Below, one piece after another: positions 2,204 through 8,301 of a stretch of DNA of 44,814 nt. A program made the position numbers and the translations under genes. Source of the DNA: Cryomorphaceae bacterium. GTDB lineage: Bacteria; Bacteroidota; Bacteroidia; Flavobacteriales_D; Sanyastnellaceae. Position 1 is the stretch's first letter. Each line of letters starts with the position of its first letter. The DNA lies in contig WGNM01000028.1 of NCBI GenBank assembly GCA_016124575.1, positions 1-44,814 of the forward strand, given 5' to 3'. The notes below the pieces were generated by a model that was not told the DNA's origin, searched no databases, and was given only the letters and a program-made list of their open reading frames with translations.

Positions 2204-2764
2204 ATGGGAATTACTGATTCATTATTACAGTCAGCAGCAAAGCAGAAACGGAAGAGCGAATACCTTCTGTACAAAGAATGCTATGCCCCATTGATGTCTG
2301 TAGCCTACCGGTACTTCAACAACGAAGACGACCGCATGGTGGCCTTGAATGAATCGTTCTATAAAGTGCTGAAAGGATTGAAAGCGTACTTGGAGCACAA
2401 CCCAAGTAGTCAGTTTATTTTTTGGGCAAAGCGCATCACAACAAACACCTGCATTGATTTGATTCGCAAACAGAAACGCAGTTTGGAAATTCCCAGTGAA
2501 GAGATGCCAGCTGAGGCCCATGTAGCCGATTTGAATGCGACAGATGCAGATGTAGAAGAGCTTGAAAAATTATTAGGTCGGTTGCCAGAAGTACAGCAAT
2601 TGGTGATGAACATGCATGCTATAGACGGCTACTCGCATAAGGAGATCTCTGCGCAGCTGGGGATAACGGAAGAAAATTCCAGGTACCATCTTTCAGCAGC
2701 CCGACGATCACTTACCAATTGGTTGAATGCCGCGAAAGAAAACCTAAAAAGCTTTGTACTGTGA
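2204..2764 (+). CDS. RNA polymerase sigma factor, sigma-70 family (ECF type)
   Basis: 186 aa, the usual size for an ECF sigma factor. Region 2 is at about residues 25-90 (YKECYAPLMSVAYRYFNN, then WAKRITTNTCIDLIRKQKR, the region 2.3/2.4-like segment). Region 4 is at about 118-180 (LEKLLGRLPEVQQLVMNMHAIDGYSHKEIS followed by the helix-turn-helix AQLGITEENSRYHLSAARRSL). It directs RNA polymerase to a specific promoter set. The stop codon overlaps the GTG start of the downstream membrane protein (GTGA), so the two are translationally coupled and probably form a sigma/anti-sigma pair. No Shine-Dalgarno is visible; the upstream sequence is a C8 tract. Confidence 0.92.
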   Translation: MGITDSLLQSAAKQKRKSEYLLYKECYAPLMSVAYRYFNNEDDRMVALNESFYKVLKGLKAYLEHNPSSQFIFWAKRITTNTCIDLIRKQKRSLEIPSEEMPAEAHVADLNATDADVEELEKLLGRLPEVQQLVMNMHAIDGYSHKEISAQLGITEENSRYHLSAARRSLTNWLNAAKENLKSFVL

Positions 2765-4206
2765 AAGAGCGAAATGAAATAGATCGCTTGTTGAAAGACA
2801 AGCTTGGCGAGAAGGCGATAGCCTTCAACGAACGGCATTGGGTAGAAATGGAGAAGCTACTCAACCGACGCAAGCGACGTGGTGTCTTTTTTATCTTCAC
2901 CATCGCACTGCTCATGACGGGCATTGCAGGTTTTGCACTTTTGAAGAATGCAGATAAAATACACATTTCAGCTAATCGCATGCAAGAGCATCGTGTAAAA
3001 GTCGAAACACGCGAAGTATTGAGCATTCTAACCAACGATTTCGTGTCTAATGAACAAAGTGACGAAACATTTTTCTCAGAAGCAAAACAGCAAAATCAGG
3101 GCGCCAATGAAAGCACTGTCAGTTCAACATCCGCTTTAGCGACCAATAAGCGACAGGATGCGACAGGCAACTTGAAAAAAGGAGGCAGTTCAGGGCAGCC
3201 AGAAAATGGACTATCATCAACAAAGAATACAGAGTTTGAACAGTCGAAACAAACAGAAACATTTGGTAGTGATGAGGTTTTTAGTGGGGGCAGCACACAT
3301 CGACAACTCAATGATCAGCAAGTTGAAGATTTGGATGGACTTGTGAATTTGAGTCCGATTTTGCTTCAAAGTGATCGTTTTGAAAGCGGTTTGGCAGCAA
3401 CCACCGACAGCTTGTTGCCTCCACCTAAGCCTTTTCGATTTGAGCTGATTGGTTTTGGTGCCTTTGGACAGCAGCAGATTTCGCAAGCACAAACCACGGA
3501 GAACGCATTGGAGTTGGCGAATTATGAAAAAGGGAGATCGACGAACTACGGCGCTATGTTTCAGGCTCGTTACAAAGGCTGGTTAGCGGCATCGGGAGTT
3601 GAAATGCTTCGCATTGAAGAAAAAGTAGATTACGGAAGTTTTAGAAAAGAAGAAGAAGTAGTGGTTGTGACCACCTATTTGGATTCATTGTTTATAGGAC
3701 AAGAATTTACGGTTGATAGTATATTTGACGAGCAGAACCAAGATTGGTTTGTCGACACCACCTATTTCGACGTCTACCAATATTTTGAACAAACAATCAA
3801 CGACACTACAGTTGTTTCAGCCTTTGAGCGCAGGAAAGAGGAGCAACCATTTTCGCAGGTCGTTTCGCGCGTTGAGATTCCGATTTTATTCGGGAAGGCC
3901 TTTAATTTTGGGAAGTTTGAGCTCAATGTTTTGGGTGGTCCGGCAATCGCCATATCTACAAAAGTTGAGGGGTATGTAATTGAAGGTTCAAAGCTGCTTG
4001 AGCGCAGGACGTTGAGCAAAGACATTGCCTTGAATCTGCATCTTCGGGCAGGGTTATCGTATGCATTGAATGATCGATGGGCGTTGCAGGTGCACACCTC
4101 TTATCGGCGAAGTGCCGCAGCATTCTTGAAATACAGAGGCTTGGAGCAGCGCTATGCAGGACTTGGCATCGGCGGTGGAGTGGTGTATCGATTTGGCGGC
4201 AGTTAG
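2761..4206 (+). CDS. Membrane-anchored protein with C-terminal outer-membrane beta-barrel domain, putative anti-sigma regulator
   Basis: I chose GTG 2761, which overlaps the sigma-factor stop by 4 bp and gives 481 aa; an ATG at 2719 in the same frame would overlap the sigma gene by 46 bp. Layout: a basic/acidic cytoplasmic N-terminus (1-40, ending RRKRR), one TM helix (about 41-61), a long Ser/Gln/Asn/Thr-rich low-complexity linker (about 70-210), then a region (about 215-481) rich in amphipathic strands and ending in a run of barrel-like strands (LRAGLSYALNDRWALQVHTSY ... GIGGGVVYRFGG). The architecture suggests one chain anchored in the inner membrane with a barrel in or at the outer membrane. 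The coupling to a sigma factor makes an anti-sigma role likely, but no canonical anti-sigma domain (zinc HxxxCxxC) is present. Confidence 0.75.
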   Translation: MKERNEIDRLLKDKLGEKAIAFNERHWVEMEKLLNRRKRRGVFFIFTIALLMTGIAGFALLKNADKIHISANRMQEHRVKVETREVLSILTNDFVSNEQSDETFFSEAKQQNQGANESTVSSTSALATNKRQDATGNLKKGGSSGQPENGLSSTKNTEFEQSKQTETFGSDEVFSGGSTHRQLNDQQVEDLDGLVNLSPILLQSDRFESGLAATTDSLLPPPKPFRFELIGFGAFGQQQISQAQTTENALELANYEKGRSTNYGAMFQARYKGWLAASGVEMLRIEEKVDYGSFRKEEEVVVVTTYLDSLFIGQEFTVDSIFDEQNQDWFVDTTYFDVYQYFEQTINDTTVVSAFERRKEEQPFSQVVSRVEIPILFGKAFNFGKFELNVLGGPAIAISTKVEGYVIEGSKLLERRTLSKDIALNLHLRAGLSYALNDRWALQVHTSYRRSAAAFLKYRGLEQRYAGLGIGGGVVYRFGGS

Positions 4207-4329: not shown

Positions 4330-4626
4330 ATGTCTGCAATACGCATAAAAGTCGTTGATGAAGGCTTCGGGCCGAAATCCGACATCATTTTTCAAGCGCT
4401 AACTGATCAACTTGAAGCCGAAGGCTGGCGGATAGCTGAGGACGCGCCAATTACCTTGAAAGTTAAGTTTTTGATAGACAACGATCACGAGAAAGTATTG
4501 GTGTTGTTGAGAGAGACAGACTCAAAAGTAAAGATTGAAGAATGTGTCTTGCCTTATTTGCCAGAACACATCTTGGGCGATATCCATACAAGTGTCGCAG
4601 CAATCCTTCTGGCACAAGAAGTTTAA
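4330..4626 (+). CDS. Hypothetical protein, 98 aa
   Basis: Start chosen at ATG 4330 (MSAIRIKVVDEGFG); an in-frame ATG at 4303 would add nine residues. It is a soluble, acidic, mixed alpha/beta small protein with no signal peptide or TM helix. I recognise no family. Its position, 96 bp upstream of the SiaB-like kinase and on the same strand, suggests it may belong to that regulatory cluster, but no motif confirms it. Confidence 0.6.
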   Translation: MSAIRIKVVDEGFGPKSDIIFQALTDQLEAEGWRIAEDAPITLKVKFLIDNDHEKVLVLLRETDSKVKIEECVLPYLPEHILGDIHTSVAAILLAQEV

Positions 4627-4722
4627 TAACAAAAGGTGTAACCCTGCAGTTTTTCTGTCCGTATTAGTATATGGTTCGAAGTGTTTTCGGACGCATACTC
4701 GATTTGAAACTGGTTAACTGTG

Positions 4723-5814
4723 ATGGTGGGAAAACACCTTTCAGCATTTGATGTGTACATCGCGAATAGCGTGAGCAAATTGCTCTTTGCTTTTCGTGGT
4801 TCGTTTAGTGACTCGCTCACTGAACGCATCATTGGTATCAGTGAAAGTTTGCACGGAGACGTTGAAGATTCTGGTGCAGTGAATCGAAAAGTTTCTTTTT
4901 TGTTGGTAGAATGTTTTCAGAACATACTGAAGCATCGGGAGACATCGCGCGCGAACACACAATTTGCAGACGACGGAATGTTCTGCTATCAAGCTGGAGA
5001 AGGAGCCTATTATATCAACTCATTGAATATTGTGAAGGTCGAGATACAGGACCAACTCAGCAAAGCAGTTGATTTTATCAACGCAATGAATGCAGAAGAG
5101 TTGCGTGCGTATCACAAACAGCAACTTCAAGACAATGTCTTCAATGAGAAAGGCGGAGCTGGCTTGGGGTTGATTGAATTGGCTCGAAAATCGGGACAGA
5201 AGTTGAAATACCGTTTTGATCCAATAAGTGATGACTTCGCATATTTCCAAAACCAAGTCTGCTTCTTAACCAATTGTCCTGCTCCACACAACCACATGGA
5301 TAGCACCAGTGAATTGTATCAGCGCATGTCCAACGACAATATTTTGTTGTTGTACAAAGGAGATTTCACTCAGCGTTCGATATTGCCGTTGTTGCAGATA
5401 GTTCAAAGTGATTTAGCGGTTGACGACATTGCTCATGCAAAGCGTGTAGCTCATACCTTGATTGAGATGTTGCAGAATATTTCGCGACATTCTTTAGAAA
5501 CGGGCCAATCGCGACATGGAGTATTTTTGGTAAGTCGATTGAACAACAGCCTGCGCATTGAGACAGGAAATCTAATTCCTAAGGCAAGCACTAAAGAATT
5601 AAGAAACAAGTTAGATTATATACTTTCGCTAGACGAAACAGGATTAAAACAGCTGCATAGCGCTCGGTTTGTTGAGAGTTTGAGCTTGCCTGATAAGTCT
5701 CGTGCTGGCTTGGGATTGATACAAGTAGCACGTGCTGCAATGTCTAAATTGAATTATTCTTTCATTGAACTTGATAAGGATACAACTTTTTTTTCCTTAA
5801 CAGTTGATGTTTGA
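4723..5814 (+). CDS. SiaB-like protein kinase with two tandem GHKL-type domains
   Basis: 363 aa from ATG 4723 (a GTG lies just upstream at 4720). SiaB-family proteins are normally a single domain of about 180-190 residues; here two homologous halves are joined. Half 1 has an N-box-like motif LLVECFQNILKH (E63, N67) and a G-box GGAGLGLIELARKSGQKLKY (144-163). Half 2 has LIEMLQNISRH (E248, N252) and SRAGLGLIQVARAAMSKLNY (326-345). The offsets of 185 and 182 residues agree, which supports an internal duplication. Known SiaB proteins phosphorylate the partner SiaC. The next gene, 15 bp downstream, is a SiaC homologue, so the same reaction is inferred. Both halves keep the Asn and Gly residues, so neither is obviously dead. 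Confidence 0.85.
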   Translation: MVGKHLSAFDVYIANSVSKLLFAFRGSFSDSLTERIIGISESLHGDVEDSGAVNRKVSFLLVECFQNILKHRETSRANTQFADDGMFCYQAGEGAYYINSLNIVKVEIQDQLSKAVDFINAMNAEELRAYHKQQLQDNVFNEKGGAGLGLIELARKSGQKLKYRFDPISDDFAYFQNQVCFLTNCPAPHNHMDSTSELYQRMSNDNILLLYKGDFTQRSILPLLQIVQSDLAVDDIAHAKRVAHTLIEMLQNISRHSLETGQSRHGVFLVSRLNNSLRIETGNLIPKASTKELRNKLDYILSLDETGLKQLHSARFVESLSLPDKSRAGLGLIQVARAAMSKLNYSFIELDKDTTFFSLTVDV

Positions 5815-5829
5815 CTATTTTTTGGGGGT

Positions 5830-6198
5830 ATGAATATGCTACACTTAGCAGAAACAGAAGACACGCCTGAAGTAAGGTATCACGAAAGTGAATGCACCCT
5901 TGTTATTCGTGGCAAGTCACTGCCTGAAAACGCCTTTAGTTTCTACAGCCCAGTCCTCGATTGGGCTAAATCATTGTCGAACGAAAGTTTGTCTGATTTC
6001 ACCATTGAACTATACCTCGAGTATTTCAATTCTTCAACAGGCAGATATTTGTTGGAGTTGTTTCTGGCCATTTCAGATCAGCACATACCGCAGAAGAAAA
6101 TTGTGTGGTTTGTAGAGCCAGATGATGAATTGATGATTGAGAAAGGAGAGGAGTTCAGTTCCCTGATCAAAATACCGTTTGAGATACGGACCATCTAA
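5830..6198 (+). CDS. SiaC-family regulatory phosphoprotein (DUF1987)
   Basis: 122 aa, the usual size for this family. It has the family's central motif LYLEYFNSSTGRYLLELF (residues 61-78). In the characterised Pseudomonas SiaC the phosphorylated Thr sits in the corresponding YxNTSS-like motif; here the motif is N67-S68-S69-T70, so a Ser at the family's Thr position or T70 would be the acceptor. The protein acts as a switch: unphosphorylated SiaC binds and activates a partner (a diguanylate cyclase in Pseudomonas), SiaB phosphorylates it and a PP2C phosphatase (SiaA) resets it. It follows the SiaB-like gene by 15 bp, and the convergent SpoIIE phosphatase is next door. No GGDEF gene is in the window, so its target here is unknown. 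Confidence 0.88.
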   Translation: MNMLHLAETEDTPEVRYHESECTLVIRGKSLPENAFSFYSPVLDWAKSLSNESLSDFTIELYLEYFNSSTGRYLLELFLAISDQHIPQKKIVWFVEPDDELMIEKGEEFSSLIKIPFEIRTI

Positions 6199-6220
6199 AA
6201 AGCATTTCCTAAGAATGACG

Positions 6221-6252
6221 AAGCGCAATTCATAACGATTGCGCTTTTTTTA
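6221..6252 (+). terminator. Rho-independent terminator after the SiaC gene
   Basis: 9-bp perfect stem AAGCGCAAT (6221-6229) / ATTGCGCTT (6238-6246), 8-nt loop, followed by a T tract. It lies between two convergent genes; the preceding A residues are few, so it mainly serves the + strand. Confidence 0.85.
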
Positions 6253-6327
6253 TTCGCCTAAGGCGGATGTGAAAGTGATTTGTGGTTTGAGCAGGCAATA
6301 GAAAAAGCGGGAGGAGACAATTTTAGA

Positions 6328-8301
6328 TCAGAGTCTCACGCCGATTACCAGGATGTCGTCGAGTTGTGTGTGAACATTCTTCCAGTTGTCTAGTTGCTGA
6401 CCGATAAACGCTTTGGCTTCGCTAGCACTCATTTTACAAGATTCAGAAAGAATATCGCGGAAACGCGCCTTGTTCATCTTTTTACCATCGGCACCACCGA
6501 ACTGATCCATGTACCCATCGGTAAATAGGTACAAGCAATCCCCCGTTTCAAAGTCGACTTCTTGTGTACTAAATCCACCCGTTGTGGCGTGGATCTCATT
6601 GAAGTATTTTCCTCCAATCGATAAAGCATCGGCCTTGATTTCGAGCATTTCGCCTTTTCGCACAACAACAATAGGGTTGCGAGCTCCAGAAAAGCTGATA
6701 CTCTTTTTTGCGTGATCGATGATGCAGAAACTCATGTCCATGCCGTCTTGTGCATTCTCACCGGCCTCATTTTGATTGAGCGATAGCATGATTTCTTCGT
6801 GCACTTTCGTGAGAATTGAACCGGGGTTTCTGTGTCCCTGCTCATTGACAATTTTATTCAATTTTGCATAGGCTATTAGCGACATAAAAGCACCTGGGAC
6901 ACCATGTCCGGTGCAGTCAATAGTAGCTAGCATTGTCTTATTGTCGTGTTCAGCGAACCAATAGAAATCACCACTAACGATGTCTTTTGGTTTGAGGTAG
7001 ATGAATGATTCTGGCAACCTCTTCCGTATTATTTCTTCGGGCACCAGAATAGAATTTTGGATTTTAAGTGCGTAGTTGATACTGCTCAAAATCTTATGTC
7101 GCTGCTGTGTTATCTCATTGTTCTGTGTCTGCAAAAGATTGTTGGTCTTTCTTTTTTTAACCAAGCTCAAAGTAATGATGGTGAGAATAATTAAGAAACA
7201 ACCAAATATTAGCATGTAGATGCGCTGGCGGAAAAGTTCTTCCGCTTTGCGGGCTTGCAAAAGTCCTTCTTGTTCTGCTATTTGTCGGTCGCGCTTTTCA
7301 GTTTCATACCTCGCATTCAACTCGCTGATTCTGCTGAAGTTATTCACCTGTGTTAAACTATCATCGAGCGCTATATAGGCCGTTTGGGCTTTGAAAGCAT
7401 CTTCAAATAACTGCAAACCTGCATATGCTTCAGCGCGCACTGAAAGCAGAGAGAGGTAAGTGTCGTTGAATTCGTGGTTTTGGCAAAGTTTCTCAGAAGT
7501 GATGAGGCTGTATAGCGCATCTTCGAATTTGCTCTGCTTAATTTTCAGGCGAGCCAAACCAATGAAATCGTTTGCCACCTGACTTTCATCGAGCTCATGC
7601 CTGTGCTCAGCTATTGATTTGTTATAATAGTACTCCGCACTATCCAATTGGCCTTTTTGCAAGAAAATATCGGCGAAAAGCGGCGAATCAGATATATACT
7701 TACCATGCATGCGCTGATAACCCCTTAAGCTGTCGGCATACATTTCGGCACCGGCATAGTCTTTTAGGGCAGCGGAAATTATAGACAAGTTATACAGGTT
7801 CAGCGAAACACCCGTGTGGTCGTTTCTTTTTGAGTTGAACACCAGCGCCTCTCTGTAGTTTTTTGCAGCCTCCTCATTATTTCCCATCGAGGTGTAAATG
7901 ACACCGATGTTATTTAATGCCTTGGCTATGCCTACTTCATCGTTTACAACGCGATAATAAGACAGCGCCAGCTGATAATGTTCTATACCAGTTAAATACA
8001 AACCTTTGATCGTGGCAATAACACCCAATTGATTGTTTGTCTTCGCCATTGCTGCCGTATCGCTCAAATTGTTAGCGAGTTCTAAAGCCGAAATGGCGTA
8101 GTTTTTTGCTTGATCAGGATCGTTGAATATGATGCTGTCGCAAAGCGAAATGGATAGGCGCAAACACAAAGTGTCTGAATTACAGTTGTTTAGTCGCATC
8201 TCTAAACTAGTAAACCTGGAGCTGCCAATGGCACCCAGATTCAGAATTAGAAGCGCGAAAACGCCCAGTAAACCAGTTGATCTTATATATTTATGTCGCA
8301 C
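6328..8301 (-). CDS. TPR-transmembrane-SpoIIE/PP2C phosphatase (SiaA-like role)
   Basis: 657 aa from GTG 8301; no in-frame ATG lies nearby. Order of parts: N-terminal signal/TM segment (about 9-26), TPR repeats in the periplasm (about 60-320, e.g. AKALNNIGVIYTSMGNNEEAAKNY), a coiled coil (about 325-360), a TM helix (361-382), a short coiled coil, then a cytoplasmic SpoIIE domain (about 435-657). Metal-ligand motifs are SGDFYW (D445), IDCTGHG (D462), DGMDMS (D519/D522) and LFTDGYMDQFGG (D595). It is a Ser/Thr phosphatase controlled by an extracytoplasmic sensor. Convergent with the SiaB/SiaC pair, it is the obvious phosphatase to dephosphorylate the SiaC homologue, though that partnership is inferred. 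Pseudomonas SiaA has a 7TM-HAMP sensor rather than TPRs. Confidence 0.9.
   Translation of the reverse strand: MRHKYIRSTGLLGVFALLILNLGAIGSSRFTSLEMRLNNCNSDTLCLRLSISLCDSIIFNDPDQAKNYAISALELANNLSDTAAMAKTNNQLGVIATIKGLYLTGIEHYQLALSYYRVVNDEVGIAKALNNIGVIYTSMGNNEEAAKNYREALVFNSKRNDHTGVSLNLYNLSIISAALKDYAGAEMYADSLRGYQRMHGKYISDSPLFADIFLQKGQLDSAEYYYNKSIAEHRHELDESQVANDFIGLARLKIKQSKFEDALYSLITSEKLCQNHEFNDTYLSLLSVRAEAYAGLQLFEDAFKAQTAYIALDDSLTQVNNFSRISELNARYETEKRDRQIAEQEGLLQARKAEELFRQRIYMLIFGCFLIILTIITLSLVKKRKTNNLLQTQNNEITQQRHKILSSINYALKIQNSILVPEEIIRKRLPESFIYLKPKDIVSGDFYWFAEHDNKTMLATIDCTGHGVPGAFMSLIAYAKLNKIVNEQGHRNPGSILTKVHEEIMLSLNQNEAGENAQDGMDMSFCIIDHAKKSISFSGARNPIVVVRKGEMLEIKADALSIGGKYFNEIHATTGGFSTQEVDFETGDCLYLFTDGYMDQFGGADGKKMNKARFRDILSESCKMSASEAKAFIGQQLDNWKNVHTQLDDILVIGVRL

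Follow-up and report, generated by a model that had tools for sequence, protein, structure and literature searches.

We found that a stretch of DNA from a Cryomorphaceae bacterium (GCA_016124575.1, contig WGNM01000028.1, positions 1 to 44,814, forward strand; this whole stretch of 44,814 nucleotides is referred to as the window) carries what, judged from sequence and predicted structure, is a real and conserved variant of the Sia phospho-switch and not a copy of the Pseudomonas aeruginosa SiaABCD system. Its three genes encode a kinase of 364 residues with two SiaB-family GHKL domains in tandem (SiaBB; 4720–5814, plus strand), a SiaC regulatory phosphoprotein of 122 residues (DUF1987; 5830–6198, plus strand), and a membrane phosphatase of 657 residues with a tetratricopeptide (TPR) sensor and a SiaA-like SpoIIE/PP2C catalytic domain (6328–8301, minus strand). 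The doubling of the kinase looks ancient and functionally asymmetric. We propose, with a probability of roughly 0.55, that this switch works without cyclic di-GMP (c-di-GMP) and that its kinase is two-headed, with the second head (half 2) dedicated to SiaC.

The two halves of SiaBB cover approximately residues 1–190 and 192–364. Pfam DUF6272 matches two stretches of the protein (3.7e-62), and each half in isolation scores over the curated cut-off of 85 bits of NF038262 (SiaB_fam_kinase), half 1 with 115.9 bits and half 2 with 122.4 bits. Both also align to chain A of 6kko, the solved structure of P. aeruginosa SiaB, with E-values of 6e-8 and 1e-6. With numbering from the GTG at 4720, the N-boxes fall at E64/N68 and E249/N253 (63/67 and 248/252 with the ATG at 4723), and the G boxes read KGGAGLGL in half 1 and SRAGLGL in half 2. 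E64 and E249 align with E61 of SiaB, which PMC7647112 gives as the predicted catalytic glutamate; that the printed numbering of the chain is shifted by one residue is our own reading. An earlier note on this DNA had described tandem SiaB-type GHKL domains with these motifs and had staked that reading on the alignment of the halves to SiaB in profile searches, which was indeed observed. The AlphaFold2 model of SiaBB has a predicted local distance difference test score (pLDDT) of 89.6 and a predicted template modelling score (pTM) of 0.88. Its top Foldseek match was SiaB (6kko_A), and a VIA comparison of residues 190–364 with SiaB gave Z 16.8 and a root-mean-square deviation (rmsd) of 2.1 over 164 aligned residues, with anti-sigma kinases next. 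SxN in place of GN was considered as a general trait of half 1 and dropped, because G stands there in 50 of the 93 tandems in the motif comparison (eleven rows with identical ends dropped).

The siaC gene follows 15 bp downstream of the kinase gene, and its product matches PF09345 at 99.1 bits (1.7e-28; cut-off 24.5 bits) as well as solved SiaC. The phosphosite motif is intact (N67-S68-S69, within Y65-F-N-S-S-T), with Ser68 as the predicted phosphosite, and each of the 72 SiaCs that were paired with a tandem kinase has S (45) or T (27) at position 68 (these pairs omit L144, in which SiaC extends over two open reading frames). The phosphatase gene is convergent to both. Its product contains TPRs, a hydrophobic N-terminus (~residues 6–30), a strong hydrophobic stretch at 356–384 and a SpoIIE domain, and its best solved relative is the PP2C domain of SiaA (6k4e, E 8e-38). 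The motifs D440-I-V-S-G-D445, D462-C-T-G-H-G, T-D595-G and D648-D649 are present, and the alignment to 6k4e, with a mapping of residue numbers that is our own, provides equivalents of D457, D474, D600 and D653, the metal-binding aspartates of SiaA according to PMC7647112. The three open reading frames, the 15-bp spacing and the convergent phosphatase with its TPR sensor are all as the earlier note had described them, and the Sia character that it assigned to kinase, switch and phosphatase is backed by profile matches and solved structures as well as by gene order and natural fusions.

The same note had spoken of a duplicated SiaB. Two SiaB domains are present, but the doubling is not local and may be a fusion instead of a duplication. 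Three sources of tandems were used: a set of 60 genomes that includes the window's own (37 of the 60 belong to its family), a full-length tandem search whose list ends near E 2e-50, and a contig scan seeded on half-1 motifs, in which 558 relatives were confirmed and 80 loci kept. A tandem-length frame occurs in 22 of the 60 genomes, and siaC adjoins it in 17 of those. By record titles, the 80 loci come from Flavobacteriales, Bacteroidales, Marinilabiliales, Chlorobi, Nafulsella turpanensis and Cesiribacter andamanensis. The N. turpanensis locus (L118) has siaBB and siaC together with a SpoIIE gene in convergent orientation. At 64 of them siaC is fused or at most five genes away, at 61 loci siaBB and siaC are adjacent on the same strand (gaps −8 to 93 bp), and at five (L106, L133, L144, L150 and L151) SiaB-SiaB-SiaC forms a single frame. 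When a phylum sample of 198 genomes was searched for DUF6272, 16 genomes matched, 12 of them over the cut-off, and none besides the window's genome had two matches in one frame.

A quick tree was built from 30 tandems and 43 single domains. In it, half 1 forms one clade (Shimodaira–Hasegawa-like approximate likelihood ratio test, SH-aLRT, 98), half 2 needs two changes, and single domains stand between the halves. Our first reading of this tree, the fusion of two separate SiaB lineages, was not borne out by the approximately unbiased (AU) test: half 2 as one clade was not rejected (p-AU 0.74), and holding both halves together gave a higher likelihood (p-AU 0.65). Because the sequences group by half and not by genome, the doubling is, on this comparison, old; it is also common in Bacteroidota and not special to the window locus, and both duplication and lineage fusion are compatible with it. 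Two observations concern single lineages. The single-contig genome G312 has three tandem siaB genes (L245, L254 and L268), one with and two without linked siaC, and one of the two unlinked copies has a broken half 2. In six genomes of genus g4 (L068, L069 and L256–L259), half 1 is kept and half 2 has no G box; five of them have no siaC nearby, and the sixth, L259, is at the end of its stretch.

Do the two halves carry out the same work? Their evolution has been unequal. The three sources together gave 132 tandem rows (71 from the half-1-seeded scan, 39 from the full-length list and 22 from the 60-genome set), which became 130 distinct rows after the removal of two identical ones; the 60-genome set and the full-length search combined gave 59 distinct tandems, four of them without a siaC label. 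Tandems at contig or stretch edges (9/132) were left unlabelled for siaC linkage, and a 996-residue frame of G004, with a match to just one half, was excluded from the count. The N-box and G box of half 1 are intact in 132/132 tandems. Since the seeding builds half-1 conservation into the 80-locus set and the 39 full-length rows come from a list ending near E 2e-50, the clean figure, free of seeding and threshold bias, is the 22/22 of the 60-genome set. The 25 tandems without linked siaC, too, all have an intact half 1. On the other hand, the G box of half 2 is intact in 88 of 96 distinct rows with linked siaC compared with 8 of 25 without it (Fisher p 2e-9 on the 132 rows) and in 34/40 compared with 4/15 among the 59 distinct tandems. 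Counted by source before the two identical rows were removed, the figures with and without siaC were 16/17 and 2/5 in the 60-genome set, 20/25 and 2/10 in the full-length search, and 54/56 and 4/10 in the seeded scan.

Furthermore, we observed that the divergence of SiaC follows half 2. Over the 72 pairs, the partial rank correlation of SiaC distances with half 2, given half 1, was 0.35–0.37, compared with 0.12–0.14 for half 1, given half 2. In conservation-matched columns, the values were 0.33 for half 2 and 0.16 for half 1, an order kept in 60/60 draws; they were 0.33 and 0.23 in a 55-pair subset and 0.59 and 0.16 in a 17-pair subset. Because the G box of half 2 is lost mainly in tandems without linked siaC and SiaC divergence follows this half, half 2 is probably a SiaC-dedicated head, and half 1 probably has another job; neither line of evidence is proof of catalysis.

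Several results weigh against this reading. Controls of the half-2/siaC contrast for shared ancestry were mixed: none of 4000 neutral traits simulated with fitted two-way rates on the midpoint-rooted half-1 tree reached the observed association of lesions with siaC (phi 0.60; simulated standard deviation 0.15), but an independent-pairs test was not significant, with 7 supported pairs of which, on average, 2.6 went the same way and 0.0 the opposite way (one opposite pair in 8/200 pairings). There are exceptions in both directions, with the half-2 G box broken in eight tandems that have linked siaC and kept in eight that do not, and a single genus (L068, L069 and L256–L258) accounts for 5 of the 17 lesions seen without siaC. 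Given its end point, the full-length list could have missed a tandem whose half 1 is ruined. In the five genomes checked among those without linked siaC, siaC was present elsewhere every time, and half 1 could act on these SiaCs; correlated distances between SiaC and a half do not show contact. As for the phosphatase, only 25 of the 54 loci with enough sequence have a SpoIIE gene within three genes downstream of siaC. Nor is its catalytic domain uniquely SiaA-like: six of the eight SpoIIE proteins in the window's genome score 95–130 bits against SiaA PP2C, the five paralogues reaching 95–122 bits and the window's protein 130. A reading of its specificity from the sequence was, therefore, rejected.

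The invariance of the half-1 motifs would also fit an arrangement in which the catalytic SiaC kinase resides in half 1, and half 2, mainly a docking or allosteric subunit, is free to lose its ATP site; docking would likewise make half 2 the more variable and the more SiaC-correlated of the two. We regard this as possible, although doubtful. Half 1 is intact in 25/25 tandems without linked siaC, so its upkeep cannot depend on linked SiaC alone (it may serve an unlinked SiaC), and the retention of the half-2 G box in 88/96 tandems with siaC is more than docking alone needs. It seems improbable that the halves are equivalent SiaC kinases and that the tandem does no more than hold a SiaB dimer together as a single chain. 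Residues for dimer formation of SiaB have been reported (PMC7278518), and the SiaBB model is confident overall (pTM 0.88), but the sequences group by half, with half 1 as one well-supported clade, and motif loss is very unequal between the halves.

In the reading that we favor, with half 2 as the SiaC head, half 2 would phosphorylate Ser68 of SiaC with ATP. Half 1 would be a second ATP-binding head that, independently of the linked SiaC, either exerts allosteric control or serves another client. The membrane TPR-SpoIIE protein would sense a periplasmic signal and dephosphorylate SiaC, and the unphosphorylated SiaC would bind and switch a non-GGDEF partner. The analysis shows to which families the proteins belong, how the genes are ordered, which motifs are present and that the halves have evolved unequally; from this we infer the substrate site, direction of signalling, division of roles and kind of partner.

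Could the output still be c-di-GMP, as in Pseudomonas? The earlier note had seen no diguanylate cyclase at the locus and had suggested a different output. A search of the whole window genome for PF00990 (GGDEF) gave 0 matches, as it did in 37/37 genomes of the family, which strongly supports that suggestion. Across the 60 genomes, two match at E 0.001 and one is over the cut-off; SiaC is present in 54 of them, the window's own included, while 59 of the same 60 are without GGDEF over the cut-off. Synthesis of c-di-GMP as in SiaABCD would fit the homologous SiaA, SiaB and SiaC parts, and the diguanylate cyclase SiaD of Pseudomonas is the only SiaC partner that we found described (PMC8457831, PMC7278518). 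Nevertheless, its chance here is negligible, as the GGDEF counts contradict it unless a cyclase is too diverged for PF00990.

Neighbour clustering in the 80-locus set yielded no plausible common partner. The recurrent neighbours scanned were a dehydrogenase, a penicillin-binding protein, a diaminopimelate (DAP) epimerase, sigma-70, a PDZ protease and a receiver-cyclase, and two small families had no Pfam match, one of 164 residues (6 loci) and one of ~229–238 residues (5 loci). No SiaC lies in a frame of at least 200 residues in the 60 genomes, and thus no output fusion was seen in them.

An extracytoplasmic function (ECF) sigma factor gene (2204–2764) lies upstream in the window, followed by a gene for a protein of 495 residues (the pair spans 2204–4206) with, by eye, a short cytoplasmic N-terminus and one apparent transmembrane stretch. 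Relatives of this gene pair are also found 5' of p118-siaBB in L050, L051 and L052. This recurrence, together with the resemblance of SiaC to an anti-sigma factor antagonist stated in PMC7647112, would suit a SiaC that regulates the sigma factor, as in anti-sigma partner switching. However, the other 13 of the 17 siaBB-siaC loci match neither gene (some are short contigs), and the 495-residue neighbour may, in our own reading, itself be an anti-sigma factor; we consider this output very unlikely.

The search for a fourth gene shared by homologous neighbourhoods, proposed in the earlier note, did turn up a candidate, but one confined to the window's family; the note itself had remarked neither on this gene nor on the different behavior of the halves where siaC is absent. 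This small conserved gene (4330–4626, plus strand; ~98 residues) occurs in 12 of the 60 genomes, all of that family, and in 12/12 it is upstream of siaBB on the same strand; in L063, an extra unassigned frame of 73 residues lies between the two. It is carried by 11 of the 17 siaBB-siaC genomes and by one more whose contig ends inside siaBB, and it is absent from all five genomes of the set that have siaBB without linked siaC. One further case is G459 (L261). A Pfam scan of the 12 members gave no match over the cut-off. The invariant residues are K7, K44, K46, R61, K66 and K68, and the model (pLDDT 88) has a predicted alpha/beta fold that matches the TolB N-terminal domain with Z 10.4 and rmsd 2.7 over 96 aligned residues at 12% identity. 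The likeness is one of fold only: with 98 residues, no propeller and, by eye, no signal sequence, the protein is not TolB. A ribosome-hibernation-like topology (8fmw_W, Z 7.8) was set aside as well, since the fold is a common one and higher scores were reached by TolB-N, CsgG and CadC domains. Tentatively, and with considerable doubt, SiaBB may be a two-client kinase of Bacteroidota in which half 2 serves SiaC, half 1 phosphorylates or senses a separate client, and the small upstream protein is a lineage-specific extra component.

A hairpin with a T-rich tail (6220–6247, plus strand, with a hairpin on the minus strand too) resembles a terminator between the convergent genes. As 8 such sites were found and 4.1 are expected from shuffles, it is weak evidence alone. 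Rfam gave zero matches at gathering score across the window. Elsewhere, the genome has two more siaC genes, three single siaB genes and, in all, eight SpoIIE domains, so cross-talk is possible. On contig 8, siaC, a SpoIIE gene and siaB form a second Sia set on one strand (L018:6117-8682), and contig 34 has a single siaB (L019:7135-7713) with no siaC match within the 14-kb stretch. In another genome, a receiver, SpoIIE and SiaB are joined in one protein, which thus unites phosphatase and kinase of the switch (L164:1471-3348; the receiver and SpoIIE parts were assigned by eye).

If SiaBB does serve two clients, it would couple two phospho-switches in one protein, in lineages without GGDEF enzymes. 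The tandems without linked siaC are a natural experiment separating the two kinase heads, and the locus family offers adjacent, fusion-backed parts for seeking a general output of SiaC. Tandem SiaB appeared in none of the titles and abstract openings among the literature matches listed, a search outside which most subscription papers fall.

Compared with P. aeruginosa SiaABCD, the window locus has in common a SiaB-family kinase, a SiaC with the N-[ST]-S phosphosite motif and a SiaA-like PP2C phosphatase. It differs in that its kinase has two diverged SiaB domains in tandem instead of a single one, its phosphatase has a TPR region before the PP2C domain and a convergent gene, and its genome, without a GGDEF match, provides no counterpart of the SiaD output. 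The cut-offs of the equivalog models NF038263, NF038264 and NF038265 were missed (SiaA 187 of 700 bits, SiaB 119 of 225 and SiaC 73 of 150). Both proteins of the kinase–SiaC pair give weak superfamily matches to the Synechocystis regulators slr1658/slr1659, with scores far under the cut-offs (41/100 and 19/100 bits). The single-domain SiaB-SiaC pairs of Bacteroidota, among them those on C32 and C8 of the window's genome, belong to the same families and have siaB and siaC close together, but they have one kinase domain and fall into several clades outside half 1. In SpoIIAB/SpoIIAA and RsbW/RsbV, a phosphoprotein switch is likewise combined with a SpoIIE-type phosphatase; SpoIIAB and RsbW are single-domain kinases that hold sigma factors, and they share the GHKL kinase fold with half 2 (VIA Z 9–11, identity 7–10%).

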